Source of the DNA: Prevotella sp. oral taxon 475
Lineage (GTDB): Bacteria > Bacteroidota > Bacteroidia > Bacteroidales > Bacteroidaceae
DNA length: 64,000 nt
Assembly: GCF_018127805.1 (NCBI RefSeq)
Contig: NZ_CP072334.1
Span: forward strand, 1,342,001 to 1,406,000
Direction: 5' to 3'
A program made the position numbers and the translations under genes. The notes under the pieces are model-generated. The model made no database searches. It saw only the letters and a list, made by a program, of their open reading frames with translations, and had not been told where the DNA came from. Positions 20,034-44,018 of the stretch are shown piece by piece (the first letter of the stretch is position 1; each line of letters opens with the position of its first letter).

Positions 20034-20038
20034 ATGGT

Positions 20039-20112: not shown

Positions 20113-20293
20113 TTCCCAAAATTGGGAAAGACAGAAAACGAAAGAAAATAGACTTCCCAAAGTTGGGAAAGCTCCAAAATGAGAAAAAGGAGGGTTCTCA
20201 AGGTTGGGAAAGGCCCAAAACGAGAAAAAGAAAGTTTCCCAAAGTTGGGAAAGACTGAAAACGGGAAAAACAAGATGTCCCAAACTTGGGACG
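20113..20293. repeat. 41-bp tandem array with TTCCCAAAnTTGGGAA dyad
   Basis: Five dyads begin at 20113, 20154, 20195, 20236 and 20277, exactly 41 bases apart. Four are TTCCCAAA(A/G)TTGGGAA or close variants. The fifth is TGTCCCAAACTTGGGACG, where the arms changed together. The spacers are A-rich (AAAACGAGAAAAAG type) and also repeated. The array lies between the AraC-type gene's terminator and the dipeptidyl peptidase III start at 20373, on which it borders at about 80 bases. The remainder of 20034-20372 shows nothing else. Confidence 0.93.
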
Positions 20294-20372
20294 CTTCCCC
20301 AGACTTAAGACTCGGATGTCAACGCCCTACAACCCTCCTCACGGAAGAACTCGAGGCGCGAAACACAAAACA

Positions 20373-22409
20373 ATGAAATTGAAACCGATGACAGATACAT
20401 TCCATTATTCCGACGAGAAATTCGCAGACATTCAGATGTTGCGCTATCGACTGCCCGGATTCGAGCAGTTGCCCCTTCAGAAGAAACTCTACATTTATTA
20501 TCTCTCACAAGCAACATTGTGCGGACGCGACATCACTACCGATCAGTTCGGCCGTTACAATCTGCGTATCCGGCAATCGCTCGAAGCCATTTATCGATAT
20601 TATCGGGCAGAGACAACGGATGTTGGGGGCAGCGAAGAGGCGACGAATCGACTCAACGGGCAGGCGAAAAAGAATCTCGAGGCCCTGCGGGTGTATCTTA
20701 AACGCGTATGGTTTTCGAATGGTATCTACCACCATTACGGTTGCGAGAAGATGGAACCTGGGTTCGATGAGACGTTTTTCCGGGCTGCCCTCCATGCGGT
20801 TCCTACTTCCGAGTTGCCCATGCAGGGGTATAACACGGTGGACGAACTCTGCAACGAACTTTGCAACGTCATCTTCCGCCCCGACTTTCAGCCCAAACGG
20901 GTAAACAAAACCGACGGCGAAGATCTTGTTCAAACCTCGGCTTGCAATTATTATGAGGGCGTGAGCCAAGCAGAGGCCGAAGCTTTTTATGCAGATAAGA
21001 AAAAGCGGAGCGGTAGTTATTCACCGTCGTGGGGACTGAACTCGAAGTTGGTGAAGCGCAACGGTCGGCTCGAAGAAATTGCATGGACAGCCACGGGACT
21101 CTATGGTTCCGCCATCCGCCAAATCGTCTTTTGGTTGGAAAAGGCCAAAGACGTAGCAGAGAATCATCAACAGGAAGAGGTCATCGGGTTGCTCATCGAC
21201 TATTATCGCACCGGATGTCTCGAAACGTTCGACACTTACAGTATCGCTTGGCTCAAGGAACAAGAGGGGCAGGTGGATTTCATCAACGGATTCATTGAAG
21301 TCTACGGCGACCCGTTGGGCCTCAAAGCCTCTTGGGAGGGCATTGTGCACTACAAAGATCTCGAGGCTACTCGCCGTACGCAACTCATCAGCAGTCATGC
21401 GCAATGGTTTGAAGACCATTCGCCCGTCGCTCCTCCATTTCGTAAGCGCGAGGTGCGTGGCGTAACGGCCAACGTTGTCTGTGCAGCTATGCTCGGCGGT
21501 GACGAATATCCTTCTACCGCCATTGGTATCAATCTGCCCAATGCCGACTGGATTCGTGCCCAGCACGGATCTAAGAGCGTTACCATCGGTAATCTTACCG
21601 AGGCCTATAACCGGGCGGCGAAAGGCAATGGATTTAAGGAGGAATTTGTGGTGGACGAAGATACGCTTCGTCTCATCGAACGCTATGGCGACCTCTGCGA
21701 TGATCTGCACACCGATTTGCACGAGTGTCTCGGTCATGGTAGCGGACAACTCCTGCCCGGTGTCAGTCCCGATGCCCTCAAAGCCTATGGCAACACGATA
21801 GAGGAGGCCCGCGCCGATCTCTTCGGACTTTACTATCTGGCCGACGAAAAACTCGTTCAACTCGGCCTCGTTCCCGATGCTGAGACCTACCGCGCCCAGT
21901 ATTACACCTACTTGATGAACGGACTCCTCACCCAACTCACCCGCATCGAACCGGGTAAGCAAATCGAAGAGGCTCATATGCGTAACCGTGCACTTATTGC
22001 CCGCTGGGTAATCGATCAGGGCAACGGGGCCGCAGAACTCATCCGTCGAGACGGAAAGATCTTCGTCCGCATCAACGACTATCCCCGTCTGCGAGAACTC
22101 TTCGCCCGTCTGCTGGCTGAGATACAACGCATCAAGAGCGAAGGCGACTTCGAAGCGGCACGTCACCTCGTCGAATCTTACTCCGTGAAGGTGGATGCAG
22201 GTCTGCATCGCGAAGTGCTCGACCGTTATGCCCGCCTCTGCCTCGCACCCTACAAAGGCTTTATCAATCCTCGCCTTACACCTGTTACGGACGAAAACGG
22301 TGCGATTGTCGACATTGCCATCGACTATACCGAGGCTTACGACGAACAGATGCTCCGCTATTCGACTCACTATTCTTTTCTTTCAACGGAAAACCTCGAA
22401 ACGAAATGA
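20373..22409 (+). CDS. Dipeptidyl peptidase III (M49 family)
   Basis: This zinc peptidase releases dipeptides from the N-termini of oligopeptides. The predicted 678 residues match Bacteroides M49 enzymes. The zinc motif HECLGH is at about 450-455, the Cys-containing variant of HELLGH known from that genus. The second glutamate region NTIEEARADLFGLYY follows near 477. No signal peptide is visible, so it is probably cytoplasmic. The start at 20373 (MKLKPMTDTFHYSDEKF) is chosen because upstream in-frame sequence runs through the repeat array; 20388 is a close alternative. The stop overlaps the next start by 4 bases. Confidence 0.93.
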   Translation: MKLKPMTDTFHYSDEKFADIQMLRYRLPGFEQLPLQKKLYIYYLSQATLCGRDITTDQFGRYNLRIRQSLEAIYRYYRAETTDVGGSEEATNRLNGQAKKNLEALRVYLKRVWFSNGIYHHYGCEKMEPGFDETFFRAALHAVPTSELPMQGYNTVDELCNELCNVIFRPDFQPKRVNKTDGEDLVQTSACNYYEGVSQAEAEAFYADKKKRSGSYSPSWGLNSKLVKRNGRLEEIAWTATGLYGSAIRQIVFWLEKAKDVAENHQQEEVIGLLIDYYRTGCLETFDTYSIAWLKEQEGQVDFINGFIEVYGDPLGLKASWEGIVHYKDLEATRRTQLISSHAQWFEDHSPVAPPFRKREVRGVTANVVCAAMLGGDEYPSTAIGINLPNADWIRAQHGSKSVTIGNLTEAYNRAAKGNGFKEEFVVDEDTLRLIERYGDLCDDLHTDLHECLGHGSGQLLPGVSPDALKAYGNTIEEARADLFGLYYLADEKLVQLGLVPDAETYRAQYYTYLMNGLLTQLTRIEPGKQIEEAHMRNRALIARWVIDQGNGAAELIRRDGKIFVRINDYPRLRELFARLLAEIQRIKSEGDFEAARHLVESYSVKVDAGLHREVLDRYARLCLAPYKGFINPRLTPVTDENGAIVDIAIDYTEAYDEQMLRYSTHYSFLSTENLETK

Positions 22410-23011
22410 CAGAAGCAACCCACCAACGCCTCATGGCTATCAAACAGTCGTTCCGCTTTGTGATGGACGGAACTACCTCACGGTTGATGGCCAGCAAAGG
22501 GGCTACCTATAAAATCAATTGGGGCGTACCTTTCCATGAACTTCGAAAAATGGCTCAGGACTATGGGAAAGACTACGACCTGGCTGTGGAACTCTGGAAA
22601 GAGGACATCCGCGAGTGTAAAATTCTCGCTACCCTCATCATGCCTCCCGAACGTATGTCGACCGATCTTGTAGACGTATGGATGGAACAACCTCTCTCAC
22701 AGGAGATGGCCGAGATGCTGGCTTTCAATCTTTATCAGTATCTTTCTTTCGCCCCAGCGTTGGCCTATCGCTGGATGGCCGCCGAAGATGTTTCGCGGCA
22801 AATTTGCGCTTACCATATTCTTGCTCGTCTTTTCATGCGTGGACAGGAGCCCAACGAACGTGGGGCCGACGAATATCTCGACCAAGTGGATGCGGCTCTG
22901 CACCACGATCACCTCGGCGTAAGGCGCGCTGCATCGGCCAGTTTGCAAAAGTTTTCTCTCTTGGGTGAGGAATACGCTAAGCGAGTTACTCCTTGGCTCC
23001 AATCGATCTAA
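22406..23011 (+). CDS. AlkD-like DNA alkylation repair protein
   Basis: The 201-residue protein is all-helical with HEAT-like repeats. YKINWGVPFHELRKMAQDYGKDYDLAVELW followed by RECKILATLIMPPE fits the AlkC/AlkD DNA glycosylase superfamily, where the corresponding segment contacts alkylated DNA. It is shorter than AlkD itself (about 230 residues), and I cannot confirm the catalytic residues, so activity on alkylpurines is only likely. It is coupled to the dipeptidyl peptidase III gene by an ATGA overlap. Confidence 0.78.
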   Translation: MTEATHQRLMAIKQSFRFVMDGTTSRLMASKGATYKINWGVPFHELRKMAQDYGKDYDLAVELWKEDIRECKILATLIMPPERMSTDLVDVWMEQPLSQEMAEMLAFNLYQYLSFAPALAYRWMAAEDVSRQICAYHILARLFMRGQEPNERGADEYLDQVDAALHHDHLGVRRAASASLQKFSLLGEEYAKRVTPWLQSI

Positions 23012-23136
23012 TTCTCCGTTCTCTTGGATCGCCAGGACATTGGAGGTCCAGTGTGTAGGGATGTTTTATATAATAATGTGTCTGCCCTTTGAAGATTTTG
23101 TTGTAATTTTGTGCGGCTGACAAAGAAAGCTCGCAA

Positions 23137-23634
23137 ATGAAGACAGACATCAACAATAAAGCGCGTCGGATTCTCGACGCCTATCTCGAAGCCAACGGTC
23201 ATCGCAAAACAACCGAGCGATATACCATTCTCAATGCAGCATGTCACATCAATGGGCATTTCTCGTTAGAAGATTTGTCTGATGCTATCACGGTAGCGGG
23301 ACTGAAAGTGAGTCGGGCCACGCTCTACAATACGATGCGGCTCTTCGCAAGACTGCAATTGGTGGTGCGGCACAGACTGGCCGACGGAACTAAATATGAG
23401 ATGAACTTAGGCGACGATTGTCACTGTCATCAAGTGTGTACGCTGTGCGGTGCGGTCTCGGAAGTGAGAATCCCCGAGGTGAGTAGAGTGCTTGAGGCGG
23501 CAACGTTCAACAACTTCCGGCAAGACGGATTCACCCTCTACCTCTACGGTGTCTGCTCGGAATGCCAAAATAGATTGGAGAGAACAAAGAAATCCGAGAA
23601 GAAAAGAAAACTTGTAAAAGAAAAAACAATATGA
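23137..23634 (+). CDS. Fur-family transcriptional regulator
   Basis: The 165-residue protein has the Fur winged helix (LEDLSDAITVAGLKVSRATLYNTMRLFARLQLV), then the His/Cys-rich metal segment CHCHQVCTLCGAVSEV (first CXXC near 102-105) and a second CXXC in CSEC near 140. These two CXXC pairs are the structural zinc site. Whether it senses iron, zinc, manganese or peroxide cannot be told. A TAATTTTG -7 element is at 23104-23111. The stop overlaps the purA start by 4 bases, so a metal regulator heads the purA-hisS run. Confidence 0.9.
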   Translation: MKTDINNKARRILDAYLEANGHRKTTERYTILNAACHINGHFSLEDLSDAITVAGLKVSRATLYNTMRLFARLQLVVRHRLADGTKYEMNLGDDCHCHQVCTLCGAVSEVRIPEVSRVLEAATFNNFRQDGFTLYLYGVCSECQNRLERTKKSEKKRKLVKEKTI

Positions 23635-24908
23635 GCAAAGGAAAAGTGGACGTCCTATTGGGATTACAGTGGGGCGACGAAGGCAAAGGAAAGGTGGTAG
23701 ACGTGCTCACCCCCGAATATGACGTGATAGCACGTTTCCAGGGCGGACCCAATGCCGGGCATACGCTCGAGTTCAACGGTGAGAAATATGTTTTGCGCAG
23801 CATCCCATCGGGTATCTTCCAAGGCGGGAAGGTGAATGTCATTGGTAACGGAGTGGTGTTAGCTCCCGACCTGTTTATGGCTGAAGCCCAGGAGTTGGAA
23901 CGAAGCGGGCACGACTTGAAAAGTCGACTGTATATCTCGAGAAAAGCCCATCTGATCATGCCTACTCATCGTTTGCTTGATGCGGCCTACGAGTCGGCGA
24001 AAGGAGCGAGCAAGGTGGGAACGACTGGTAAGGGAATCGGTCCGGCCTACACCGACAAAGTGTCGCGAAACGGACTGCGCGTGGGTGACATTTTCGACGG
24101 CTTCGAAGAGAAATACACCCAGCATAAGACACAACACGAAGCCATTCTGCGTAGCCTGAACTACACCCACTACGACTTATCTCAGACAGAGCAAGCCTGG
24201 ATGAAGGGCGTGAACTATTTGCGCGGATTTAATATCGTAGACAGCGAACACGAACTCAACCATCTATTACAAAACGGGAAATCCATTCTTTGCGAGGGTG
24301 CGCAAGGTACGATGCTCGATGTCGACTTCGGCAGCTATCCCTTTGTCACTTCGTCTAACACCATCACCGCCGGAGCGTGCTCGGGACTGGGCATCGGGCC
24401 CAATAAAATCGGCAACGTCTATGGCATCATGAAAGCCTATTGCACCCGCGTAGGCTCGGGACCGTTCCCCACCGAACTCTTCGACAAGACGGGCAAACAG
24501 CTCCGTGATCTCGGACATGAATATGGGGCCGTGACCGGTCGCGAACGTCGCTGCGGATGGATCGACCTCGTGGCTCTTCGTTATGCCATCATGATCAACG
24601 GTGTGACGCACCTCATTATGATGAAGAGCGACGTGCTTGACGGTTTCAGCACCATCAAGGCCTGCATAGCCTATCAACGCGATGGCAAAATATTGGACGA
24701 TTTCCCCTACGACATCGAGCACAACATTCAACCGGTATACAAAGAACTGCCGGGTTGGCAAACCGATATGACGGGCCTCACCAGCGAGGATCAATTTCCC
24801 GCAGCTTTCAAGGCCTATATCGATTTCTTGGAAGAAGAGCTTAAGACGCCCATCAAAATCGTCTCCATCGGTCCGGACCGTAAGCAGACTATCGTGAGAA
24901 AAGGATGA
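23631..24908 (+). CDS. purA: Adenylosuccinate synthetase
   Basis: PurA joins IMP and aspartate with GTP, the committed step to AMP. The protein is 425 residues with the N-terminal GTP-binding loop [16 protein letters not shown], the IMP-site segment [10 protein letters not shown] and [30 protein letters not shown], and [11 protein letters not shown] in the C-terminal half. It overlaps fur and hisS by 4 bases on either side (ATGA), making translational coupling likely. Confidence 0.97.
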
Positions 24909-26287
24909 CTGAAAAAGGAAAGCAAATGACGAATAAACCCTCTATCCCCAAAGGAACGCGCGACTTCTCGCCCATCGAAATGGCGAAGCGCAATTACATC
25001 TTCAACACCATCAAGAGCGTTTATGCCCTGTACGGATTCGAGCCCATCGAAACGCCGGCTATGGAAACGCTGCAAACACTACTGGGCAAGTATGGCGAAG
25101 AGGGCGACAAACTGCTCTTCAAGGTGCTCAACTCGGGCGACTTTATGAGCAAAGTCGCTACAGAAGAACTTGTCGATGGAAATTCGCTGCGACTCTCGAC
25201 CTGCATCTGCGAAAAAGGTCTGCGATACGATCTCACCGTTCCTTTCGCCCGCTACGTTGTGATGCACCGCGATGAATTGCAATTACCTTTCAAACGCTAC
25301 CAAATTCAGCCTGTGTGGCGTGCCGACCGGCCACAGAAAGGCCGTTACCGCGAGTTCTATCAGTGCGATGCAGACGTGGTAGGTTCCGACTCGTTGCTCA
25401 ACGAGGTGGAACTCCTCCAAATCATCGACACCGTCTTCACCCGTTTCGGCATCCGCGTGCAAATCAAACTGAATAATCGGAAGATACTTGCCGGCATCGC
25501 CGAATACATTGGTGCACCCGATCAAATCGTCGACATCACCGTGGCCATTGATAAACTTGATAAAATCGGTCTTGATGCCGTGAACGCCGAATTGTTGTCC
25601 AGCGGTATCCCTGCCGATGCCATAGAAAAGCTTCAGCCCATTCTCACGCTTTCGGGCAGCAACGCAGACAAGCTCGATACCATTTATCGCACCATTGCCA
25701 CGTCGGAAACAGGGAAGAAAGGCATTGAAGAAACGCGATTCATCCTTGACAAATTGGACATGGTGGGACTGAACAATGAGCTCGAACTCGACCTCACCCT
25801 GGCCCGTGGACTCAACTATTACACCGGAGCCATCTTCGAAGTAAAGGCCTGCGACGTAGCCATTGGCAGCATTACAGGCGGCGGACGCTACGACAACCTC
25901 ACGGGTATCTTTGGAATGCCGGGGTTGAGCGGGGTAGGGTTCAGCTTTGGTGCAGACCGAATTTACGACGTTCTCAACACGCTCGACCTTTATCCACGAG
26001 AACTGGTGGGTACCACACGCCTGCTTTTCATCAATTTCGGCGAGGCGGAGGCTGACTATTGTCTTCCGCTCATCTCCCAGATTCGTTCCGCCGGCATCAC
26101 GGCCGAAATTTATCCCGATTCCGTCAAGATGAAAAAACAGATGAGCTATGCCAACGCCAAACACATCCCCTTTGTGGCACTGGCAGGCGAAACGGAGATG
26201 AAAGCCGGCAAAATTACCCTCAAGAACATGGAGACGGGCGAGCAGACGCTCGTCACAATCGACGAACTCATCACTGCCATCGGCTGA
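24905..26287 (+). CDS. hisS: Histidyl-tRNA synthetase
   Basis: This class II synthetase has 460 residues. It shows the N-terminal [14 protein letters not shown] segment, motif 2 with [29 protein letters not shown], the histidine-specific loop [15 protein letters not shown] and motif 3 [11 protein letters not shown]. The C-terminal 90 residues form the anticodon-binding domain. The first ATG at 24905 overlaps purA; an internal ATG at 24926 ([10 protein letters not shown]) is an alternative. A 41-bp repeat array follows the stop. Confidence 0.96.
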
Positions 26288-26320
26288 AAAGTTGAAAATC
26301 ATCCATAATCTTACTGATGG

Positions 26321-26502
26321 CTCTGAACATTTCAGAAAGCTTCCCTGGCACCCAGCGGTGATTCTGAACATTTCAGAAAGCTTCCCTGGCACCCAGCGGC
26401 CGTTCTGAACATTTCAGAAAGCTTCCCTGGCACTCAGCGGCCGTTCTGAACATTTCAGAAAGCTTCCCTGACATCCAGCGGTGGTTCTGAAAAGTTCAGA
26501 AG
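26321..26502. repeat. 41-bp tandem array with TCTGAAcatTTCAGA dyad
   Basis: Dyads begin at 26322, 26363, 26404, 26445 and 26486, exactly 41 bases apart. The first four read TCTGAACATTTCAGA; the last, TCTGAAAAGTTCAGA, keeps the arms but alters the centre. A second dyad, CTGGcacCCAG, lies half a period (about 21 bases) after the first in the early units and decays to CTGGcacTCAG and CTGAcatCCAG. The array fills the gap 26288-26617 between hisS and thrS, about 80 bases upstream of the thrS -7 element. Confidence 0.93.
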
Positions 26503-26581
26503 AGAAAAAACAAAACACCATGTTCAACCTCAAGAGAGAAAATCGACTTCGCATTTATATGGGGTTGTAAAAAGATTGTCG

Positions 26582-26589
26582 TATTTTTG
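26582..26589 (+). promoter_or_regulatory. Probable -7 element of thrS
   Basis: TATTTTTG followed by CAGCC fits TAnnTTTG and lies 28 bases before the start codon. The best TTG upstream is only 14 bases away, so the -33 is uncertain. Confidence 0.5.
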
Positions 26590-26617
26590 CAGCCAAAACG
26601 ATAAAAACAAAAAAGTG

Positions 26618-28582
26618 ATGATAAAAATAACGTTTCCAGACGGCTCTGTCCGTGAATATAAAAAAGGTATTACAGGTATAGAAATTGCACAGAGCATCTC
26701 GCCCGCCTTGGCACGAGAGGTATTGGCTTGCGGTGTCAACGGAAAGACCGTCGAACTAAACCGACCCATTAACGAAGATGCCACTCTCGCCCTCTATAAA
26801 TGGGAAGACGCAGAGGGAAAGCACACCTTTTGGCACTCCTCGGCCCACCTGCTGGCCGAAGCCCTCAAAGAACTTTATCCGGGTATACAATTTGGATTCG
26901 GACCTGCTCTGGAAAACGGGTTCTTCTATGACGTGATGACCAAAGACGGAACCGCCATCAGTGAAAACGATTTTACCAGAATAGAAGACAAAATGCGCGA
27001 ACTTGCCAAACGCGACGAACCCATCGTTCGGCGCGACGTGGCAAAAGCCGATGCCTTAAAAGAATTTAAAGCCGACGGACAGGAATACAAATGCGAACAT
27101 ATCGATCTCGATCTCGAAGATGGTACCATCTCCACCTATACGCAGGGAGCCTTTACCGATCTCTGTCGCGGGCCTCACCTCATGTCTACCGGAGCGATCA
27201 AAGCCATCAAAATTCTCAGTACAGCTGGTGCCTTTTGGCGTGGCGATGCTAAACGCGACCAACTCACCCGCATCTACGGTATCACGTTCCCCAAGAAAAA
27301 AATGCTCGACGAATATCTCGTCATGCTCGAAGAAGCAAAAAAACGCGATCACCGAAAGATAGGCAAGGAAATGGAACTTTTCATGTTCTCCGAACGAGTG
27401 GGGAAGGGCCTGCCTATCTGGCTCCCCAAAGGCACAGAACTGCGTCTGCGTCTGCAAGATATGTTACGCAAAATTCAGAAACGCTATGGCTACCAGGAAG
27501 TCATTACACCGCACATCGGCAGTAAAAACCTCTACGTCACCTCCGGTCATTATGCACACTACGGCAAAGACTCATTCCAACCCATTCACACACCCGAGGA
27601 AGACGAAGAATACATGCTCAAACCCATGAACTGCCCTCACCACTGCGAAGTGTTTGCTTGGAAACCACGTTCGTACAAAGATCTGCCCCTGCGCATCGCA
27701 GAATTCGGTACCGTCTATCGATATGAAAAAAGTGGCGAACTACACGGACTCACTCGCGTTCGCTCATTCACTCAGGACGATGCCCATATCTTCTGCCATC
27801 CCGAACAAGTGAAGAACGAATTCCTTCGTGTGATGGACATCATTCAGGCCGTGTTCACCATCTTCCAATTCAACGACTTTGAAGCGCAAATCAGTCTGCG
27901 AGATCCCAAGAATACCGAGAAATATATCGGCTCAGACGAAGTGTGGGAGGAAAGCGAACAAGCCATTATCGACGCCTGTCGGGAAAAAGGACTCGATGCA
28001 AAGATAGAATACGGCGAGGCCGCATTCTATGGCCCGAAACTCGATTTTATGGTAAAAGATGCTATTGGTCGGCGTTGGCAACTCGGCACAATTCAAGTAG
28101 ACTATAATCTGCCTGAACGTTTTAAGTTGGAATATACTGCTGAAGATAATACTAAAAAGACACCTGTGATGATCCACCGCGCTCCATTCGGATCGCTTGA
28201 ACGCTTCTGTGCCGTTCTCATCGAACACACTGCGGGACACTTTCCTCTATGGCTCATCCCCGATCAAGTGGCCATCCTACCCATTTCCGAGAAATACAAC
28301 GACTATGCCCAACGCGTAGCCAAATATCTCGACAGCGTAGGAGTGCGCGCCACACTCGATGCTCGCAATGAAAAAATAGGTCGAAAGATTCGTGACAACG
28401 AAATCAAACGCGTTCCCTATATGATTGTCGTCGGTGAAAAAGAAGCAGTCGAAGGACTCGTCTCCATGCGTAAACAAGGTGGTGGCGAGCAAGCGACCAT
28501 GACGATGGAAGATTTTGCCAAACGCGTCAATGATGAAGTTGCTGCATTGCTTCAAGCCACCGATATTCATCCGGAAGATTGA
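26618..28582 (+). CDS. thrS: Threonyl-tRNA synthetase
   Basis: The 654-residue protein starts [17 protein letters not shown], the TGS domain. The editing domain follows with [11 protein letters not shown] and the downstream CRGPHL. The class II catalytic core has [10 protein letters not shown], motif 2 [25 protein letters not shown] and motif 3 [12 protein letters not shown]. The C-terminal anticodon domain is complete. The start at 26618 is chosen over an in-frame TTG at 26576 because it opens the TGS domain. infC follows with a separate promoter. Confidence 0.97.
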
Positions 28583-28642
28583 TGCCATCCATATTCTTAC
28601 TCGTTGTAAACGCCTGTATCACTGCAAATAATCAAAGAATAA

Positions 28643-28674
28643 TTTTGCATGTCGGTTGAAAAGTCGTACTTTTG
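28643..28674 (+). promoter_or_regulatory. Promoter of infC-rpmI-rplT
   Basis: TTTTG at 28643-28647, a 19-base spacer and TACTTTTG at 28667-28674 give a full Bacteroidetes promoter, 25 bases before the infC start. Confidence 0.75.
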
Positions 28675-28699
28675 CAGCCGCTTATCATATTATAGTTGA

Positions 28700-29371
28700 A
28701 TGAAGAATGACAAAATAAAGAATCAGTATCGCGTGAATGAACAAATTCGTGTGAAAGAAGTGCGCATCGTTAGCGATGGTGGCTCCACCGTTGTTCCAAC
28801 ACGTCAGGCAATGGATATGGCACGTAGCCAAGGAGTGGATCTCGTGGAGATTTCTCCTAATGCCCAACCGCCCGTTTGTCGTCTCATTGACTATTCGAAA
28901 TTCCTTTACCAGCAGAAAAAGCATGCAAAGGAAATGAAAGCAAAACAGGTGAAAGTTGACGTGAAAGAGATTCGTTTTGGACCACAGACGGATGAACACG
29001 ATTATCAGTTCAAACTGAAGCATGCCAAAGAATTCTTAGACAACGGTAACAAGGTTCGTGCATATGTCTTCTTCCGAGGTCGCTCCATTCTTTTCAAAGA
29101 ACAAGGAGAAGTCCTTTTACTTCGATTTGCCAACGATTTGGAAGAATACGGAAAAGTAGAACAGATGCCTGCCCTTGAAGGAAAGAAAATGTTTCTCTAC
29201 CTTGCTCCGAAGAAAACTGGAGCTGTGAAAAAGAGCCAGCAAAAGTTGGATCGCGAGAAACGCGAGGCCGAAGCCAAAGATCCGGAGGAGGACGCAGAAA
29301 ACACAAATAACGGTTTATTTGCAAATGCCAAGAACGGTGAAGACGTTTTGAAAAAGCTACAGACCGAATAA
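28700..29371 (+). CDS. infC: Translation initiation factor IF-3
   Basis: IF-3 binds the 30S subunit and controls start-codon choice. The 223-residue protein has the N-domain ([38 protein letters not shown]) and C-domain ([39 protein letters not shown]). About 40 extra residues at the C-terminus are charged and low in complexity ([16 protein letters not shown]), longer than the roughly 180 residues of the E. coli protein. It starts with ATG, not the rare AUU used for autoregulation in E. coli. Confidence 0.96.
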
Positions 29372-29399
29372 TAACAACAAGAATAAAGAAAGAAGGTGC

Positions 29400-29423
29400 G
29401 TAACGCCCGGTATTATGCGTTAC
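29400..29423 (+). promoter_or_regulatory. Hairpin in the infC-rpmI leader
   Basis: GTAACGC (29400-29406) pairs with GCGTTAC (29417-29423) around a 10-base loop, 33 bases before the rpmI start. It could be part of an L20-type autoregulatory leader, but no known leader consensus was matched. Confidence 0.35.
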
Positions 29424-29456
29424 CACATAAATAATAACAATTTAAACAACAAAAAA

Positions 29457-29654
29457 ATGCCAAAAGTAAAGACTAATTCCGGTGCAAAGAAGAGATTTCG
29501 TTTTACCGGTACAGGTAAGATTAAGAGACATCATGCTTACCACAGTCACATCCTGACAAAGAAAACAAAGAAGCAAAAGAGAAATTTGGTTCACCAAACT
29601 CTCGTAGATCGTTCCAACATGAAACAGGTTCGCGATTTGCTCTGCTTGCGTTAA
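29457..29654 (+). CDS. rpmI: 50S ribosomal protein L35
   Basis: The 65-residue basic protein [14 protein letters not shown] is standard L35, with the conserved [12 protein letters not shown] segment. The start at 29457 replaces an in-frame ATG at 29415, which would add an unnatural N-terminus. It is the middle gene of the universal infC-rpmI-rplT cluster. Confidence 0.97.
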
Positions 29655-29689
29655 AATTCAGTCAAACATTTAAAAGTTAAGAAAGAACT

Positions 29690-30034
29690 ATGCCAAGATC
29701 AGTTAATCACGTTGCTTCAAGAGCAAAGAGAAAGAGAATTCTGAAACTCACGAAAGGTTACTTCGGAGCAAGAAAGAATGTTTGGACTGTAGCAAAAAAT
29801 ACCTGGGAGAAAGGTCTCACCTATGCCTATCGTGATCGTAGAAATAAGAAACGCACTTTCCGTGCTTTATGGATTCAGCGTATCAACGCTGCTGCGCGTT
29901 TGGAGAATATGACCTATTCTACTTTGATGGGTGCACTGCATAAGGCCGGTATCGAAATCAACCGCAAGGTATTGGCTGACCTGGCTGTGAACAATCCCCA
30001 GGCCTTTAAAGCCATTGTGGATAAGGTGAAATAA
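29690..30034 (+). CDS. rplT: 50S ribosomal protein L20
   Basis: The 114-residue protein begins [19 protein letters not shown] and contains [22 protein letters not shown], the rRNA-binding core. L20 is an early assembly protein and in several phyla represses its own operon. It ends the operon, followed by a long terminator. Confidence 0.98.
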
Positions 30035-30974: not shown

Positions 30975-30988
30975 AAAAAGGAGGAGAC

Positions 30989-35000: not shown

Positions 35001-35347
35001 CCGACCTGGTCGGCGGAAGCCTTGCAGTCTGCAGAATATTCTCCGACCTGGTCGGCGGCTTTCAAACATTAATCGAATTCGTTTCCGACCTGGTCGGCGA
35101 TAGCCTTTCGCGTTAATGTGTGTTTCCGACGCGGTCGGAGACAACAAAATAGCCGAAAAATGCGTCGCCGACCAGGTCGGAGACGTTTTGCAGCCTGCAT
35201 GAATGCCGCCGACCACGTCGGAGACACACTTGCAAAGTGCACGATTGTTGCCGACCGCGTCGGAAATACACTTGCAGCCTGCATGCCTTCCGCCGACCGC
35301 GTCGGAGGCATACTTGCAAAGTGCACGATTGTTACCGACTGCGTCGG
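35001..35347. repeat. 42-bp tandem array with CCGACCnnGTCGG dyad
   Basis: Nine dyads begin at 35001, 35043, 35085, 35126, 35168, 35209, 35251, 35293 and 35335, spaced 41 or 42 bases. Cores vary in the centre (CCGACCTGGTCGG, CCGACCGCGTCGG, CCGACCAGGTCGG). From 35180 on a second dyad, TGCAnnnTGCA, sits about 21 bases after each core. Its two versions (TTGCAAAGTGCAC and TTGCAGCCTGCAT) alternate, so the right half is an 84-base higher-order repeat. The array fills much of 34848-35639, upstream of the DUF6261-like promoter. Besides it, a hairpin GCCATC-TTTC-GATGGC near 35368 and the fucosidase terminator are present. Confidence 0.93.
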
Positions 35348-35448
35348 AGACGTTCTTTAGCTAACAAAGCCATCTTTCGATGGCTTTGGAGAGAAGTCTA
35401 TGGAGCATAAGAATCTGCTGGATGCCGTTTTGGGATAGGATCAAAAGG

Positions 35449-37186: not shown

Positions 37187-38446
37187 TTATCGTTTGTGCC
37201 TTCCGGGTGCGGAGGGTTTGCCGCGGCCGCCGCCTTTGCCTCTCTTGCCGGCGGGACGATGGGAGGAGGGGCGATGGGAGGTTTTGGTGGGGATGGCGTA
37301 GGGGGGAGCGGTGCCGAGGGAGTCGGGGAGGGGAAGCTTGTCGATGGTTTTTTCGAGGAATTTCTCGATCTGGAGGAAGTAATACACGTCCTGGTCGCTG
37401 ATGAGGGTGATGGCGCGGCCGTCGCGCTCGGCTCGGGCGGTGCGGCCGATACGGTGGACGTAGTCTTCTACGTCGTGGGGCACGTCGTAGTTGATGACCA
37501 AAGCGATGTCGTCGATGTCGATGCCGCGGGAGAGGATGTCGGTGGCGACGAGCACGTCGGTGGCTCCGCTTTTGAAACGAAACATGACTTCGTCTCGCTC
37601 TTCCTGAGAGAGGTCGGAGTGCATCTCGCCGCTGTTGACTTTCATACGCAGAAGGGCGCGGTGGATCTCTTTTACTTTCTGCTTCTTACCCGAGAAGATG
37701 ATGACGCGCTGCAGGTGGCCTTCTTGGAAAATGTGCTGTAGAAGGGGAAGTTTCTGCGGCTCGTAGCAGAGGTAGGCTTGCTGGGCGATTTTCTCGGCGG
37801 GCTTGCTGACGGCGAGTTTGATTTCGATGGGATGCTTGAGCAGGGTCTTGGCGAGCTGCTCGATCTTGGGGGGCATGGTGGCCGAGAACATGATGGTCTG
37901 GCAGGTGGGGGGGAGGTGCTTGGCGATGGCGAGAATGTCTTCGGAGAAACCCATGTCGAGCATGCGATCGGCTTCGTCGAGGACGAAGAAAGAGACGCGG
38001 CTGAGGTCGACGTTGCCGATGTTCATGTGGGAGATGAAGCGGCCGGGGGTGGCGATGATGATGTCGGCTCCGAGACGAAGGGACTTGAGTTCTTGGTCGT
38101 ATCGGTTGCCGTCGTTGCCGCCGTAGATGGCCAGACTGCTGACGGTGCTGAGGTAGTAGCCGAAGCCTTGCATGGCTTGATCGATTTGCTGGGCCAGCTC
38201 GCGGGTGGGCGACATGATGACGGCGTTGATGGCGTCGTGGGGAAAACCGCCGTCGTCGAGGAGGGAGAGGATGGGCAGGAGGTAGGCGGCGGTCTTTCCT
38301 GTTCCGGTCTGTGCTACGCCGAGGATGTCTTTGCGACGGAGAATCTGCGGGATGCAGGCTTCTTGTATGGGGGTGCACTGCTCGAAGTGCATGTCGTAGA
38401 GGGCGTCGAGGACGTTGTCGTTGAGATCTAATTCTTCAAATGTCAT
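37187..38446 (-). CDS. DEAD-box RNA helicase, RhlE type
   Basis: The 419-residue protein shows all core motifs: Q motif (CTPIQEACIPQIL), Walker A AQTGTGKTAAY, PTRELA, TPGR, DEAD in VLDEADRML, SAT in MFSATMP, and YVHRIGRTARAERDG. The last 45 residues are a basic Gly/Lys/Arg-rich tail (PAGKRGKGGGRGKPS) that probably binds RNA, as in RhlE. Likely roles are ribosome assembly or mRNA decay. It lies 9 bases after the LptF/G gene. Its DNA is strongly GC-rich (43 of 60 bases are G or C in 37201-37260, counted by hand). Confidence 0.95.
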   Translation of the reverse strand: MTFEELDLNDNVLDALYDMHFEQCTPIQEACIPQILRRKDILGVAQTGTGKTAAYLLPILSLLDDGGFPHDAINAVIMSPTRELAQQIDQAMQGFGYYLSTVSSLAIYGGNDGNRYDQELKSLRLGADIIIATPGRFISHMNIGNVDLSRVSFFVLDEADRMLDMGFSEDILAIAKHLPPTCQTIMFSATMPPKIEQLAKTLLKHPIEIKLAVSKPAEKIAQQAYLCYEPQKLPLLQHIFQEGHLQRVIIFSGKKQKVKEIHRALLRMKVNSGEMHSDLSQEERDEVMFRFKSGATDVLVATDILSRGIDIDDIALVINYDVPHDVEDYVHRIGRTARAERDGRAITLISDQDVYYFLQIEKFLEKTIDKLPLPDSLGTAPPYAIPTKTSHRPSSHRPAGKRGKGGGRGKPSAPGRHKR

Positions 38447-38455
38447 GTTGTTGTC

Positions 38456-39664
38456 TTAGTTGGGGGCGTTCCTATAACAGAAATACGCCACGATGGAAAA
38501 TAGGATGTTGGGAATCCATGCTGCGAGCATGGGGGGAGTGTCGGCGTTGATGGCAAAGGTGGCTGAGACGGTCTGCAACATGATGTAACCGAAGCTTAGA
38601 GCCATTCCGATACCGAGGTAGAGGCCCATTCCGCCCTTGCGCTTGCGGGAGGAGAGGGAGAGACCTATGGTGGTGAGAATGAAGGAGGCAAAGGAGGAGG
38701 CAATGCGCTTGTGATACTCTACTTTGTATTGTACGACGTTGCCGCTGCCTCGGCCGATCTGCTTGGAGATGTAGGCGCGGAGCTCGGGGTTGGTGAAGGT
38801 TTCTTGCTGACCTTTGGAGTAGACGAGGTCGGTGGGCTCCATGAGGATGAGGGTGTCTTTTTGTTCGCCGTAGGTGATCTGCTCGCGTAGACCGTGGATG
38901 GCACGAATGCGCCAGTTGGTGGCACGCCAGTGGAATTTGGAATCGCTGATGGTGTCGTATTGCAACTCGGCGGCGGTCATGTGGCTGACGAGTTTTTTGT
39001 TTTCAAACTTGTCGAGCGAGAAACCGTAACCGCGTTTCATGTTGTTGTCGTAGTGTTGGATGTAGGCAATCACGCCGCGATCGACTTGTAACTGTACGTT
39101 CTCGGCCGAGGTGTTTTTCTTTTTGTTCTTGTACATTGATTCGAAGTTCTGGCGGATGACGGTGCCGTGGGGGATGACGTAACCGCTGAGATAGAACGAG
39201 AGTCCGGAGAGCAGAATGCATGAGAACATGTAAGGACGCATGAGGCGACGAAAGGAGACGCCGGCGGCTAACATAGAGATGATTTCGGAATTGCCGGCGA
39301 GCTTCGAGGTGAAGAAGATGACGGCGATGAAGACAAAGAGGGGACTGAAGAGATTGGCAAAGTAGGGGATGAAGTTGGCGTAGTAGTCGAAGACGATAGC
39401 GCGGAGCGGGGCGTGGAATTGGGTGAACTTGGCGAGGTTTTCGTTGACATCGAAAACAATGGAGATGGAGATGATCAGAGCGATGGAAAAAAAGTAGGTA
39501 CCAATGAACTGGCGAATGATGTAACGATCGAGTGTCTTGAGATGTCGGGTAGGAGAGAGGATTCTCAAATAGGGCACGATGGGCGTGAACCACGCCGTTC
39601 TCTTTCTCAATGAGCGGGAAATGCTCAATAACCAGTGATAACGTTTGATTTGTTTTCGTTCCAT
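38456..39664 (-). CDS. LptF/LptG-family permease (YjgP/YjgQ)
   Basis: The protein is 402 residues with three N-terminal and three C-terminal membrane helices around a periplasmic beta-jellyroll, the LptF/G layout. The core begins LKTLDRYIIRQFIGTYFFSIAL. About 40 residues precede it because no ATG, GTG or TTG occurs at the usual start. The end, GMGLYLGIGMALSFGYIMLQTVSATF, is typical. With LptB and its partner it would pull LPS from the inner membrane. It is transcribed with the helicase and lies 134 bases after tgt. Confidence 0.92.
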   Translation of the reverse strand: MERKQIKRYHWLLSISRSLRKRTAWFTPIVPYLRILSPTRHLKTLDRYIIRQFIGTYFFSIALIISISIVFDVNENLAKFTQFHAPLRAIVFDYYANFIPYFANLFSPLFVFIAVIFFTSKLAGNSEIISMLAAGVSFRRLMRPYMFSCILLSGLSFYLSGYVIPHGTVIRQNFESMYKNKKKNTSAENVQLQVDRGVIAYIQHYDNNMKRGYGFSLDKFENKKLVSHMTAAELQYDTISDSKFHWRATNWRIRAIHGLREQITYGEQKDTLILMEPTDLVYSKGQQETFTNPELRAYISKQIGRGSGNVVQYKVEYHKRIASSFASFILTTIGLSLSSRKRKGGMGLYLGIGMALSFGYIMLQTVSATFAINADTPPMLAAWIPNILFSIVAYFCYRNAPN

Positions 39665-39798
39665 TTCTTCTCTTACGTCCTTACTTCTCTACGCCTTTTT
39701 GTTACTGTACGCCTTGTGTATTTTTTGTTTTTTACTGTCTTTACTACTTCCTACCTGGTAGTTCTTACGGCTTTACTATCTTTATTAACTTTGCTCTT

Positions 39799-40926
39799 TT
39801 ATATTCGTCTTCCGAGATTGTCGATAACGCTAGATTTCCATTGCACGAAGTCGCCTTGCTCGATGTGCATGCGGGCATCGGCCGTCAGTCGCAGGTAGAA
39901 AGCCAAGTTGTGAATGCTTGCTATTTGCATGGCGAGCAGTTCTTGCGCCTTAAACAGGTGGTGCAAGTAGGCTTTCGAGTGGATGCGATCTATCTCACAG
40001 CCGTCTGGATCAATGGGCGAAAAGTCGTCTTCCCACTTCTTATTGCGCATATTCATTGTGCCTTGGTAGGTGAAGAGCATGGCATTGCGCCCGTTTCGGG
40101 TAGGCATCACGCAGTCGAACATGTCTACACCACGCTCGATAGCTTCGAGAATGTTCTGCGGTGTACCAACGCCCATGAGGTAACGAGGCTTATCTTTGGG
40201 CAGAATCTCGTTTACAACCTCTATCATCTCATACATCACCTCGGTTGGTTCACCAACTGCCAGCCCACCGATAGCGTTTCCGTCGGCACCTTTATCGGCT
40301 ACATGCTTGGCCGCCTCTTGTCGAAGGTCTTTGTAAGTACAACCTTGCACAATGGGAAAGAGGCTTTGCTGATAGCCATAAAGTGGCTCCGTTTCGTTAA
40401 AACGCTTGAAACAGCGATCCAACCAATGCTGTGTTAGCCCCAAACTTTTCTTTGCGTATGCGTAATCGCTGTTGCCCGGCGGGCACTCGTCGAATGCCAT
40501 CATGATGTCGGCACCTATGATTCGTTCGGTGTCCATCACGCTTTCGGGCGTAAACACGTGCTTGCTGCCGTCGATATGCGAACGAAACTCGCAGCCATTC
40601 TCGGTTAATCGGCGTATGCCTGTGAGCGAAAACACTTGAAAACCGCCCGAATCGGTAAGTATAGGCCTATCCCAGGTGTTGAACTTATGCAGTCCGCCTG
40701 CCTTTTTCAGCACGTCTAATCCCGGACGAAGGTAAAGGTGATAGGTGTTGCCGAGTATGATTTGCGCCTTCACCTGCTGGCGCAGCTCGCTGAAATGCAC
40801 ACCTTTCACCGACCCGCATGTGCCTACGGGCATAAATACGGGTGTCTTTATTTGTCCGTGGTCGGTGGTGATGATGCCCGTCCGAGCGTCCGACGCCGTG
40901 TCGGTGTGTTGCAATTCGAATTTCAT
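39799..40926 (-). CDS. tgt: Queuine tRNA-ribosyltransferase
   Basis: Tgt exchanges guanine-34 for a queuosine precursor in tRNAs for Asp, Asn, His and Tyr. The 375-residue protein has TPVFMPVGTCGSVKG, DSGGFQVFSL with the proton-transfer Asp, QGCTYKDLRQEAAK, GGLAVGEP and GVDMFDCVMPTRNGRNAMLFT with the nucleophile Asp. The C-terminal zinc site is degenerate: where E. coli has CxCxxC before SRAYLHHL, this protein has DGCEIDRIHSKAYLHHL with a single Cys. It starts 7 bases after the lon stop, so the two are co-transcribed. Confidence 0.95.
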   Translation of the reverse strand: MKFELQHTDTASDARTGIITTDHGQIKTPVFMPVGTCGSVKGVHFSELRQQVKAQIILGNTYHLYLRPGLDVLKKAGGLHKFNTWDRPILTDSGGFQVFSLTGIRRLTENGCEFRSHIDGSKHVFTPESVMDTERIIGADIMMAFDECPPGNSDYAYAKKSLGLTQHWLDRCFKRFNETEPLYGYQQSLFPIVQGCTYKDLRQEAAKHVADKGADGNAIGGLAVGEPTEVMYEMIEVVNEILPKDKPRYLMGVGTPQNILEAIERGVDMFDCVMPTRNGRNAMLFTYQGTMNMRNKKWEDDFSPIDPDGCEIDRIHSKAYLHHLFKAQELLAMQIASIHNLAFYLRLTADARMHIEQGDFVQWKSSVIDNLGRRI

Positions 40927-40933
40927 CTAACTA

Positions 40934-43399
40934 TCAATCCTTTTTCTTCTCTTCCTCAATGTCGAACTTGATGGCATTTTCCACCACTTCGTTGGTCAGT
41001 GCGAAGTCCCAAACGTCTTGCACATTCTCCACGTAATGGAACTTAACGCCCGTGAGATATTTCTCTGGAATTTCTTCTATATCTTTCTTATTGGCGCGAC
41101 ACATCATAATATCTGTAATGCCTGCGCGCTTTGCTGCCAATATTTTTTCTTTTATTCCACCCACGGGCAGCACCTTTCCGCGAAGCGTTATCTCGCCAGT
41201 CATGGCCGTATTTTTGCGTACCTTGCGCTGGGTTAGTGCCGAGGCGATAGACGTGGCGATGGTGATGCCGGCCGACGGACCATCTTTCGGGGTGGCTCCT
41301 TCGGGTACGTGGATGTGGATATTCCATTGGTCGAACAGGCGATAATCAACGCCAAGCTTGTCTACATGGGCCTTAACGTACTCCAAAGCAATCACTGCCG
41401 ACTCTTTCATCACGTCGCCGAGGTTACCCGTAAGCGTCAGTTTCGCCCCACGACCTTTGCTCAACGAGGTTTCGATGAACAGAATTTCGCCGCCAACGCT
41501 TGTCCAAGCCAAGCCCGTAACCACGCCGGCATAGTCGTTGCCCTGATAGATGTCGCGGTAATAAGGCGGTTTGCCCAACAGTCCTTCTATCTCGGCAGGC
41601 GTTATTTTGGCAAAAGGCAACTCGCCGTTAAGTGCCCGCAGGTAGGCCATCTTGCGCAAAGCCTTGTCTATTTGCTTTTCAAGCTGCCTCACACCACTCT
41701 CTCGGGTGTATTGTTCAATCATCTTTTCAAGAGCCGCTTTGTTGAAGTTGGGTTTCTCTGTGGCGTTTTTAGCCAAGCCCGTGTTCTGCAATTCGCGCGG
41801 CACAAGGTGGCGTTTGGCAATCTCGATCTTCTCTTCGGTGATGTAACCACTCACCTCGATAAGCTCCATACGGTCGAGCAGGGGGCGCGGAATGGTGTTG
41901 AGGTCGTTGGCGGTGGCGATAAACAGCACACGCGAGAGGTCGAAATCAACATCGAGATAGTTGTCGTGGAAGGCATTGTTCTGCTCAGGATCGAGCACTT
42001 CGAGCAACGCCGACGAGGGGTCGCCGTGCAAAGTGTTCTGCGTTACCTTGTCTATCTCGTCGAGAATAAACACAGGATTGGACGAACCTGCTTTCTGAAT
42101 GCTCTTAATGATACGGCCCGGCATGGCACCAACGTAGGTTCGGCGGTGTCCGCGAATTTCCGATTCGTCGTGCAATCCGCCCAACGACATACGCACGTAC
42201 TTACGATTCATGGCCGTGGCGATGCTCTTTCCAAGACTGGTTTTACCTACTCCGGGAGGTCCGTAAAGGCAAATGATGGGCGATTTCAGGTCTCCGCTAA
42301 GCTGTAACACGGCTAAATGCTCCAAGATACGGTCCTTCACCTTTTCCATTCCATAGTGGTCGTGGTCCAATACCTTTTGGGCACGCTTAATGCTAAGGTC
42401 GTCTTTGGTGTATTCGTTCCAAGGCAAACCCACCATCGTTTGCAGATAGGTGAGCTGTATGCTGTAATCAGGACTTTGCGGATTAAGCGTATCGAGCTTA
42501 TCCAGCTCCTTATAGAAGATCTTGCTCACCTCTTCCGACCACTTCTTACCCTTCGCTTTCTCCTCCAACTCGCGGTGTTCGGGCGAACCTTCGCCGTTGC
42601 CCAGTTCCTCCTTGATGTTCTTGATCTGTTGCTGCAAGAAATATTCGCGTTGCTGTTCGTCGATGTCTTCGCGTGTTTTGGAGCGAATGTTTTGCTTGAT
42701 TTGCAGCAGTTGCATTTCTTTATTGAGGGTGCGCAGAGCGATGTAGACACGTTCGAGCGAATTGTCGGCCTCCAACATACGCATTTTATCGTTCAGATCG
42801 AAAGGCATGTTCGAGCAGATGAAATTGGTGGCGATGACATCGTGGTGGATATTGGCGATGGCAAACTGTGCCTCGTCGGGCATTTCCTCATTTTGTTTAA
42901 TGAACTCGACGGTTTGGTTGCGCAGATCTTCCATGGCAGTGGTGTATTCGCTGCTACTGGCATCGGCAAAAGTCTCGGGAGCCTTCGACACGAGTGCAGT
43001 GAGGAAAGGCTTTCTTTTGACGATGTCTTCCAACTGGCATCGGCCTAATCCTTGGACGATGACAGTAAGATTTCCTCCAGGTCCCGACATCTCGAGCACC
43101 CTGACGAGTTTGGCGTAGACGCCAAAAGTGAAGAGGTCTCGTTTGCCGGGTTCTTCGATGTCGCTATTTTTCTGACAGAAGACGGCAAAAATGCGGTCGG
43201 GGTTGGATTTGAGTTTGTCGATGAGGTGCATACTCGCCGTCCGTCCCACGAGAATGGGTGTCACTACGCCAGGAAACAGCACGAGATTGCGTGTGGCCAA
43301 GACGGGCACCACATCGGGTGCGGGTGCATCGAAAAGTGTGCTGATGTCGCCTTCGTAGTCGGCAATCATTTGTATTGAGGTGTTGCTTTTTCTGTCCAT
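40934..43399 (-). CDS. lon: ATP-dependent Lon protease
   Basis: The 821-residue protein has the N-terminal substrate domain (VPVLATRNLVLFPGVVTPILVG), AAA module with Walker A GPPGVGKTS and Walker B FILDEIDKV, and the C-terminal protease with catalytic Ser in KDGPSAGITIATSI and Lys in GGIKEKILAAKRAG. Lon degrades misfolded and regulatory proteins. A TAACTTTG -7 element lies at 43435-43428 on the minus strand. A 41-bp repeat array separates lon from the divergent trmN6-like gene. A heat-shock element was not recognised. Confidence 0.97.
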   Translation of the reverse strand: MDRKSNTSIQMIADYEGDISTLFDAPAPDVVPVLATRNLVLFPGVVTPILVGRTASMHLIDKLKSNPDRIFAVFCQKNSDIEEPGKRDLFTFGVYAKLVRVLEMSGPGGNLTVIVQGLGRCQLEDIVKRKPFLTALVSKAPETFADASSSEYTTAMEDLRNQTVEFIKQNEEMPDEAQFAIANIHHDVIATNFICSNMPFDLNDKMRMLEADNSLERVYIALRTLNKEMQLLQIKQNIRSKTREDIDEQQREYFLQQQIKNIKEELGNGEGSPEHRELEEKAKGKKWSEEVSKIFYKELDKLDTLNPQSPDYSIQLTYLQTMVGLPWNEYTKDDLSIKRAQKVLDHDHYGMEKVKDRILEHLAVLQLSGDLKSPIICLYGPPGVGKTSLGKSIATAMNRKYVRMSLGGLHDESEIRGHRRTYVGAMPGRIIKSIQKAGSSNPVFILDEIDKVTQNTLHGDPSSALLEVLDPEQNNAFHDNYLDVDFDLSRVLFIATANDLNTIPRPLLDRMELIEVSGYITEEKIEIAKRHLVPRELQNTGLAKNATEKPNFNKAALEKMIEQYTRESGVRQLEKQIDKALRKMAYLRALNGELPFAKITPAEIEGLLGKPPYYRDIYQGNDYAGVVTGLAWTSVGGEILFIETSLSKGRGAKLTLTGNLGDVMKESAVIALEYVKAHVDKLGVDYRLFDQWNIHIHVPEGATPKDGPSAGITIATSIASALTQRKVRKNTAMTGEITLRGKVLPVGGIKEKILAAKRAGITDIMMCRANKKDIEEIPEKYLTGVKFHYVENVQDVWDFALTNEVVENAIKFDIEEEKKKD

Positions 43400-43484
43400 T
43401 TAATCTTTTTGCTCTTTTTTCGGGTGGCAAAGTTACAAATATTTCCCGATAAATCCGCCGCGCCCTTTCCTTATATATATAAAA

Positions 43485-44018
43485 GGTGTTACTGTACCCT
43501 ACAGTAACGTCGCGGAGACGAAAATGGTGTTACTGTACCCTACAAAACCGCCACGGAGGCCAAAATGATGTGATTGTACCCTACAGTAACGCCGCGGAGA
43601 CGAAAATGGTGCTACTGTACCCTACAAAACCGCCATCAGAGGCAAAAATGATGTGATTGTACCCTACAATGACGCCACGGAGACCAAAATGGTGCTAATG
43701 TACCCTACAGTAACGCTGCGGAGGCAAAAATGGTGCTACTGAGCGGCTCAAAACCGCCGCGGAGACCAAAATGGTGCTACTGAGCGGCTCAAAACCGCCG
43801 CGGAGAGAAAAATGATGCTACTGAGCCGCTCAAAACCATCGCGGAGACCAAAATGGTGCTACTGAGCGGCTCAAAACCACCGCGGAGAGAAAAATGGTGC
43901 TACTGAGCGGCTCAAAACCATCGCGGAGACCAAAATGGTGCTACTGAGCGGCTCAAAACCATCGCGGAGAGAAAAATGGTGCTACTGAGCGGCTCAGAGC
44001 GAGTGCGGAGACGCTCCA
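43485..44018. repeat. 41-bp tandem array, 13 units, with two dyad core types
   Basis: Units begin at 43485, 43526, 43567, 43608, 43650, 43691, 43732, 43773, 43814, 43855, 43896, 43937 and 43978; all steps are 41 except one of 42. Units 1-6 have the core TGTACCCTACA (in unit 1 extended to TTACTGTACCCTACAGTAA). Units 7-13 have TGAGC(G/C)GCTCA. The flanks, including GCGGAGACCAAAATGGTGCTAC or close forms, are common to both. ACCAAAATGGT is itself a dyad. The array fills the divergent gap 43400-44046 between lon and the trmN6-like gene, ending about 30 bases before the latter's start. Confidence 0.95.

Follow-up and report, generated by a model that had tools for sequence, protein, structure and literature searches.

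The window analysed here is a stretch of 64,000 nucleotides from the chromosome of Prevotella sp. oral taxon 475 (positions 1342001-1406000 of a single 2.56-Mb contig). It contains four tandem arrays, in which a unit of 41-42 bp carrying an inverted repeat (dyad) is repeated at a nearly constant step. The spacing of the units in such arrays outlasts their sequence. The reading favoured here, to which we give a probability of roughly 0.4, is that the arrays are intergenic rows of dyads that are constrained by their geometry and act as DNA, perhaps as sites bound by a dimeric protein. The four arrays and their dyads had been described in an earlier note on this DNA and were confirmed by Tandem Repeats Finder (TRF) and by a dyad scan; all four lie between genes. 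Among named organisms, Prevotella has the closest relatives of the window's proteins, which speaks against Porphyromonas as the source.

Array 1 (20113-20293, plus strand) has an A-rich backbone and five TTCCCAAnnTTGGGAA dyads with a period of 41 bp, of which the third is TTCTCAAGGTTGGGAA and the last GTCCCAAACTTGGGAC. It is flanked by two plus-strand genes, and before it, at about 20040-20073, inspection by eye shows a hairpin that resembles a terminator and has a T run. Array 2 (26321-26502, plus strand), also between two plus-strand genes and with a period of 41 bp, has five dyads of the TTCTGAAcatTTCAGAA type, the last being TTCTGAAAAGTTCAGAA; a second dyad, CTGGcacCCAG, is offset by half a period. 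Array 3 (35001-35347, no strand assigned) lies between two minus-strand genes and contains nine CCGACnnnGTCGG dyads, 41-42 bp apart and separated by mostly unlike, diverged spacers. The successive spacings of its CCGAC...GTCGG dyads in the dyad scan are 42, 42, 41, 42, 41, 42, 42 and 42 bp. Array 4 (43485-44018, plus strand) is a mosaic in which two kinds of dyad, thirteen in all, share one backbone (CGCGGAGACCAAAATGGTGCTAC), with six TGTACCCTACA dyads at 43493-43709 followed by seven TGAGCSGCTCA dyads at 43740-43996. It lies between divergent genes, one for Lon protease and the other for a methyltransferase that is called trmN6 in relatives. TRF called 20112-20291, 26322-26501 and 43481-43996 with period 41, and 35188-35351 with period 42, the latter covering the right half of array 3 only.

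The earlier note took the four arrays to be unrelated. There is indeed no kinship among the four, but each has relatives elsewhere on the chromosome. BLAST of the arrays against their own genome gave 42 matches for array 2, 23 for array 1, 4 for array 3 and 35 for array 4, self included. Several matches may fall within one array, and when merged by place they amount to about 13, about 19, 2 and about 30 places, respectively. The count for array 2 comprises the strong matches. Its weaker ones (E 3e-8 to 4e-4) fall on relatives of array 4, which indicates that these two families share core letters. The dispersed relatives are 67-94% identical; the one relative of array 3 is at genome position 1325198.

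Two samples of the genome were searched with TRF, an unbiased one of 464 kb, made up of the window and 20 stretches of 20 kb at even intervals, and a larger set of 697,740 bases for a census of 41- and 42-bp arrays. The census gave 53 arrays of period 41 and three of period 42, 14 of the 56 coming from the unbiased sample and the remainder from stretches picked through BLAST array matches. A motif score placed 25 of them in family A (that of array 4), 13 in family B (array 2), 7 in family C (array 1) and 11 elsewhere, six of these 11 being C-like by eye. Within a family the backbone is constant, whereas the inverted-repeat core varies, with both arms changing together. The cores of family A (212 of 216 units) are TGTACCCTACA (69 units), TGAACTGTTCA (61), TGAGCGGCTCA (23), TGAGCGACTCA (15), TGAGCCGCTCA (13), TGAGTCGCTCA (9), TGTAGCCTACA (7) and others with at most 4 each. 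Those of family C are TTCCCAAnnTTGGGAA, TTCCAACTACTTGGAA, TTCCGAGnCCTCGGAA, TTCGCGCCGGCGCGAA and TTCGTACCCCTACGAA, plus the inverse of TTCGTACCCCTACGAA. Units are similar within an array, copy numbers run from 2 to 17, and mosaic arrays occur. In the 464 kb, both strands considered, nine of twelve core patterns occur in arrays only, two occur outside as well (CCGACC..GTCGG with 6 hits and GTACCC.?TAC with 4) and one, TGAACTGTTCA, has no occurrence in this sample. The absence of an 11-base word outside the arrays is, however, also the chance expectation. A 319-bp part of array 4 had no match in 59 relatives, of which 35 belong to this genus, an exact search of viral contigs with three backbone patterns found none, and a near-match search of a plasmid collection with window positions 20000-30000 gave no match. 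Three family C arrays (genome positions 1316035, 1616302 and 1903340) share a common downstream sequence and contain one core side by side in both orientations, with CCCC and GGGG loops.

How firmly the spacing is kept can be judged from the divergence of neighbouring units. In family C all 42 neighbour pairs are 41 bp apart, although they have accumulated 437 substitutions (10.4 differences per pair on average). In family A 178 pairs are 41 bp and 13 are 42 bp apart, with 965 substitutions (mean 5.4). In a family of 22-bp arrays, to which we return below, all 103 pairs are at exactly 22 bp and none elsewhere between 12 and 33 bp (one pair is at 34), with 652 substitutions, a mean of 6.3 of the 22 bases differing. 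Duplicated intergenic flanks of the same genome served as the yardstick: their 12 alignments, not all of which are independent, contain 179 mismatches and 18 gap openings. At this ratio about 66 insertions or deletions (indels) would be expected in the 22-bp family, 44 in family C and 97 in family A; 0, 0 and 13 were seen. The shortfall persists at a ratio of 0.03 (P = 3e-9, 2e-6 and 7e-4). The units of families A and C were located with a gap-free 41-column profile, so that indels inside units are under-reported, whereas the 22-bp count, which used an 11-base anchor and permitted spacings of 12-34, is freer of this effect.

The symmetry of the dyads is maintained while their letters change. 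In all 56 family C units (38 distinct), taken without row selection, 85.3% of the cells are paired, compared with 66.1% in shuffles (70.7% in the best of 500) and at most 59.0% when slid; six of the seven pairs have changed on both sides, and four of the 56 units have no dyad. For family C this count repeats one made on hand-chosen rows. Such rows, 18 of 34 for family C and 11 of 56 for family A, were selected to cover the core types after a core-picking step that retained only nearly symmetric cores. In these rows 95.0% of the family C cells are paired (17 distinct rows, five of seven pairs changed on both sides), as are 100% of those of family A (9 distinct rows, two of four pairs). Three family A arrays (1157913, 1188395 and 1909422), for which a wrong phase had been picked, were excluded. 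The units are related and the shuffles are therefore not to be taken as probabilities. By hand count, 51 of the 56 consensus units have a loop of 0-3 bases in their best dyad, the score being one that favours short loops. Loops of this size are what dimer sites usually have, and would be tight in an RNA hairpin. In family A a hand tally, with one misread core dropped, gave 7 G-U and 8 A-C events on the sense strand, and there is no strand bias toward G-U. Family B and array 3 have a second dyad offset by half a period. That this is a general rule was considered (12 found against about 4.4 expected over 79 units, 73 of them with a dyad) and dropped because the units are not independent.

The claim that period and symmetry are conserved while sequence is free is thus supported by the kept spacing and the co-changing arms, and also by the distribution of periods. 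In the unbiased sample there are sharp peaks at 22 and 41 bp rather than a broad spread: the 103 TRF clusters include 43 of period 22, 12 of period 41, two of 42 and one of 82, with every remaining period at 6 or fewer. The same 464 kb, Markov-shuffled, gave one TRF row of score at least 60 (period 21), compared with 68 clusters in the real DNA. The period of 41-42 bp given in the earlier note was therefore borne out, but a second one of 22 bp, represented by five arrays in the window, had been overlooked. In nine other species of the genus (1,600 kb in total; period at least 14, TRF score at least 60), 80 of 116 arrays have one of these two periods, 61 of them 22 bp and 19 of them 41 bp. The next commonest periods are 21 (6 arrays) and 66 (4 arrays). 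Species G100 alone contributes 22 arrays of period 22 and 18 of period 41 to its total of 52. The units in these congeners are unlike those of the window, and many contain dyads, for example TGTCATCGGaacaTCCCGATGACA, TAACGGCGGATTTTCCGCCGTTA and CGTCGGCCGCGGCCGACG in G100, and AATATGACGTCATATT and TTTTGCAATGCAAAA in G108. Arrays of 22 bp are present in nine of the ten genomes of the genus that were sampled (80-500 kb each), the tenth being G024. With 100 shuffles per unit, the dyad reaches p<=0.05 in 10 of 23 congener arrays of the 41-bp class, 29 of 69 of the 22-bp class and 4 of 24 of other periods; in the own genome none of six arrays of other periods does so. Four other families of the order (362 kb) yielded 12 arrays of score at least 60, none of period 22, 41 or 42; two arrays of period 21 and one of period 23 came near. 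No such array was present in five named loci either, which total 88.8 kb and include one from a Prevotella metagenome-assembled genome. Species G108 also has long tandem arrays of period 77, with about 11 and about 29 copies (L181 2420-3238 and 4315-6580).

The arrays lie between genes. None of the 56 41-bp arrays, and none of 49 arrays of the 22-bp class (here taking in periods 21 and 23), has more than half of its length in a gene predicted by a home-made codon-usage model (coding fraction 0.75), which runs counter to the possibility that arrays are equally frequent inside genes. The 41-bp arrays are found between tandem genes in 45 cases, convergent genes in 9 and divergent genes in 2, array 4 being one of the two. 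This avoidance of divergent gaps has P=5e-5 when measured against intergenic bases (24,708 of 104,647 divergent) and is weaker, P=0.015, against gap counts (35 of 261 divergent). The 22-bp arrays show no such avoidance, with 15 of the 43 of known context in divergent gaps. Relative to tandem genes, family A arrays are in the same orientation in 8 cases and opposed in 8, and family B arrays in 5 and 8, whereas family C is co-oriented in all 6 cases, or 12 of 12 if the six C-like arrays assigned by eye are included.

Because the arms are compensated, the loops are tight, the wobble pairs show no strand bias and the orientation is random, families A and B are best understood as functioning in double-stranded DNA. 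Each dyad would then be bound by a DNA-binding protein in dimeric form. With 10.5 bp to the turn, the step of 41-42 bp corresponds to 3.9-4.0 helical turns and that of 22 bp to 2.1 turns, and the fixed spacing would bring one dimer after another to almost the same side of the helix. The whole array might be a stretch of regular nucleoprotein structure by which the chromosome is organised or insulated in the gaps between transcription units. Rows of dimer sites are preferred because their nearest counterpart of understood anatomy is sopC (parS-F), the centromere of the F plasmid. According to the accessible part of PMC6238139, it consists of twelve 43-bp repeats, with ten 16-bp inverted repeats that bind ParB-F/SopB. 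Like the arrays described here, sopC has tandem dyads at a fixed spacing and a unit of nearly equal length. It is, however, one sequence at one locus, whereas dozens of arrays with many dyad sequences are found here; the arrays would work like sopC with many dyad sequences replacing one.

Several observations weigh against this reading. No protein, or set of paralogues, that accepts so many sequences is known as a candidate, and with many dyad sequences in one genome a single sequence-specific dimer cannot read all of them. The dyads of sopC are read by a cognate ParB; in this genome one protein with a ParB_N domain was found, and near-canonical parS sites lie elsewhere, at about 80 kb. Nine of the twelve core patterns occur in arrays only, so that single sites of the kind that ordinary regulators usually show are not in excess. 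The steps of 41 and 22 bp are each about 0.1 turn off a whole number of turns. The 41-bp arrays were found in three of the ten genomes of the genus sampled (the own genome, G160 and G100). Taken singly, 6 of the 14 own 41-bp arrays in the unbiased sample have a dyad that beats 95% of shuffles; in the 22-bp class of the own genome, where 5 of 45 reach p<=0.05, the dyad is not consistent. Finally, the predicted RNA folds of the four arrays are strong (z of -4.3, -4.4, -12.1 and -4.5), which does not separate the readings.

The arrays could also be self-propagating palindromic elements, similar to repetitive extragenic palindromes (REPs), bacterial interspersed mosaic elements (BIMEs) or miniature inverted-repeat transposable elements (MITEs). 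This alternative, the main rival of the favoured reading and possible though on balance doubtful, supposes that a replication or transposition process recognises hairpins and copies units of fixed length, and that purifying selection spares the copies only in harmless gaps behind genes. It would account for the dispersed relatives and for the dyad loops that occur in both orientations (e.g. TTCTGAAcatTTCAGAA and TTCTGAAatgTTCAGAA). The accessible part of PMC3733652 describes REPs as palindromes that are present between genes in many copies, the neighbouring genes being tandem or convergent. The arrays resemble REPs and BIMEs in their palindromic unit of 20-40 bp with many intergenic copies, and the 41-bp class, although not the 22-bp class, shares the context bias, with 54 of its 56 arrays between tandem or convergent genes. 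Unlike REPs, they are strictly periodic head to tail and their dyad sequence is free. By eye, the REP tag GTAG/CGTC is absent from the consensus units of arrays 1 and 2, is represented in array 3 by CGTC inside the dyad only, and in array 4 by GTAG on the opposite strand, within and next to the dyad. No REP-associated transposase was recognised. On the REP_Tyr model (cut-off 80) the two Y1 proteins of the genome reach 18.6 and 15.9 bits, on the IS200 model (cut-off 55) 55.9 and 45.5 bits, and the flanks of both genes carry a different palindrome family. These IS200/IS605-like transposases are encoded at genome positions 44.3 kb (L192 1402-1860) and 1098.2 kb (L193 1402-1863). The palindromes around them, examined by eye, have changing stems and a constant foot (AAC-xyz-nnn-z'y'x'-GTTGGTCTGTT). 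Neither inspection by eye nor BLAST revealed a common end sequence in 110 flanks, taken from 20 bp outside the TRF edge, although terminal repeats of about 12 bp could escape this comparison; 30 pairs of flanks are similar, some through segmental duplication and some through short common stretches. Furthermore, a ruler that acts only in copying leaves the lack of indels after divergence unexplained.

A comparison with Porphyromonas gingivalis bears on the same alternative. The earlier note mentioned direct repeats of about 22 and 41 bp in that species. This has second-hand support in the accessible part of PMC4596501, the primary report being Nelson 2003. That part of PMC4596501 gives tandem repeats of 41, 23 and 22 nt for strain W83, with about 10-20 copies per element type, states that BrickBuilt elements are intergenic, and places the 41-nt repeats within the 464/PgRS elements (MITE464/PgRS), which favours self-propagation. 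The two periods, 22 and 41, are thus those of the window. According to the same source, the P. gingivalis repeats lie inside MITE-like elements with ends like those of IS5, whereas no such ends were seen here.

It is unlikely, although conceivable, that the arrays are kept throughout the genus by geometry alone, as rulers for one architectural protein or copying machine. Such a machine would read the dyad symmetry and the step of 22 or 41 bp and tolerate almost any sequence, the letters being specific to a species or a family.

The earlier note also listed transcript hairpins among the candidate roles. We regard as rather improbable that the arrays are rows of RNA hairpins in untranslated regions, selected for structure rather than sequence and acting in termination, mRNA stability or attenuation. 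The strong predicted folds and the co-orientation of family C with its genes agree with it, as do the one-sided changes in the chosen family C rows, which are G-U on the co-oriented strand in three cells; an A-C occurs, however, in one unit outside that selection. For families A and B the random orientation, with 13 arrays in the same direction as tandem genes and 16 opposed, disfavours such a role, as do the lack of a G-U bias in family A, the position of several family A arrays downstream of terminator-like hairpins with T runs (by eye) and the loops of 0-3 bases in most consensus units. Family C is compatible with it, and could additionally be an RNA leader element. A search of Rfam at gathering scores found nothing in the window beyond one tRNA.

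It is improbable to a still greater degree that the arrays are a mutational by-product, made and homogenised without function by slippage at palindromes. The similarity of units within arrays, the copy numbers of 2 to 17 and the mosaics are of the kind that slippage would produce, but it predicts neither two fixed periods in several species nor the near-absence of indels. Three further candidates were rejected: parS, given the near-canonical parS at about 80 kb; operators of ordinary regulators, nine of the twelve core patterns being confined to arrays; and CRISPR, as what lies between the dyads is conserved both inside single arrays and from array to array in families A, B and C, array 3 with its unlike spacers being a contrast (cas genes were not searched for).

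Were selection to act on spacing and symmetry and leave the sequence free, such sites would escape motif-based searches. They would then mark a chromosome-organising or element-copying system that extends over the genus, and a common rule would also cover the P. gingivalis repeats of 22 and 41 nt. The P. gingivalis periods of 41, 23 and 22 nt and the placement of REPs are already published, as the accessible parts of PMC4596501 and PMC3733652 show. No paper stating a rule of period plus dyad was found in a search that had most subscription papers, Nelson 2003 included, outside its reach, and the accessible parts of PMC5771137 and PMC4060949 contain nothing on it. Likewise, two periods and dyads that recur across a genus on unlike sequences, with a spacing resistant to indels, were not found in the literature searched.

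The five 22-bp arrays of the window belong to one family, in which a conserved anchor of the AAAAGCTAAG type is combined with a variable segment. They are located at 3229-3305 (minus strand), 9381-9440 (minus), 17356-17415 (plus), 54582-54658 (plus) and 59581-59636 (minus). Three exact copies of the anchor pattern in a row occur in the own genome only (47 + 35 places) among 295 genomes of the order. Plasmid iterons of about 22 bp are similar, as they too are repeated directly at a step of two helical turns and have a conserved anchor. The arrays described here differ in being scattered over the chromosome and far more numerous. The 22-bp arrays frequently begin with an inverted copy of the unit (e.g. 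genome 662,519-662,571), whose variable segment in places matches that of the next unit, resulting in an inverted repeat with 22-bp arms.

The families are unevenly distributed on the chromosome. Of the 62 places of families A, B and C, 36 lie within about 0.5 Mb of position 1.4 Mb (P=0.002, for an interval chosen post hoc). This array-rich region, 900-1900 kb, includes the window at 1342-1406 kb, and the near-canonical parS at 80 kb together with a change of GC skew near 1.4 Mb suggests that it is the terminus half of the chromosome. Two of the 13 family B arrays (824.5 and 832.0 kb) flank the sole ParB_N gene found (827.4 kb) at distances of at most 5 kb (P=0.001, post hoc).

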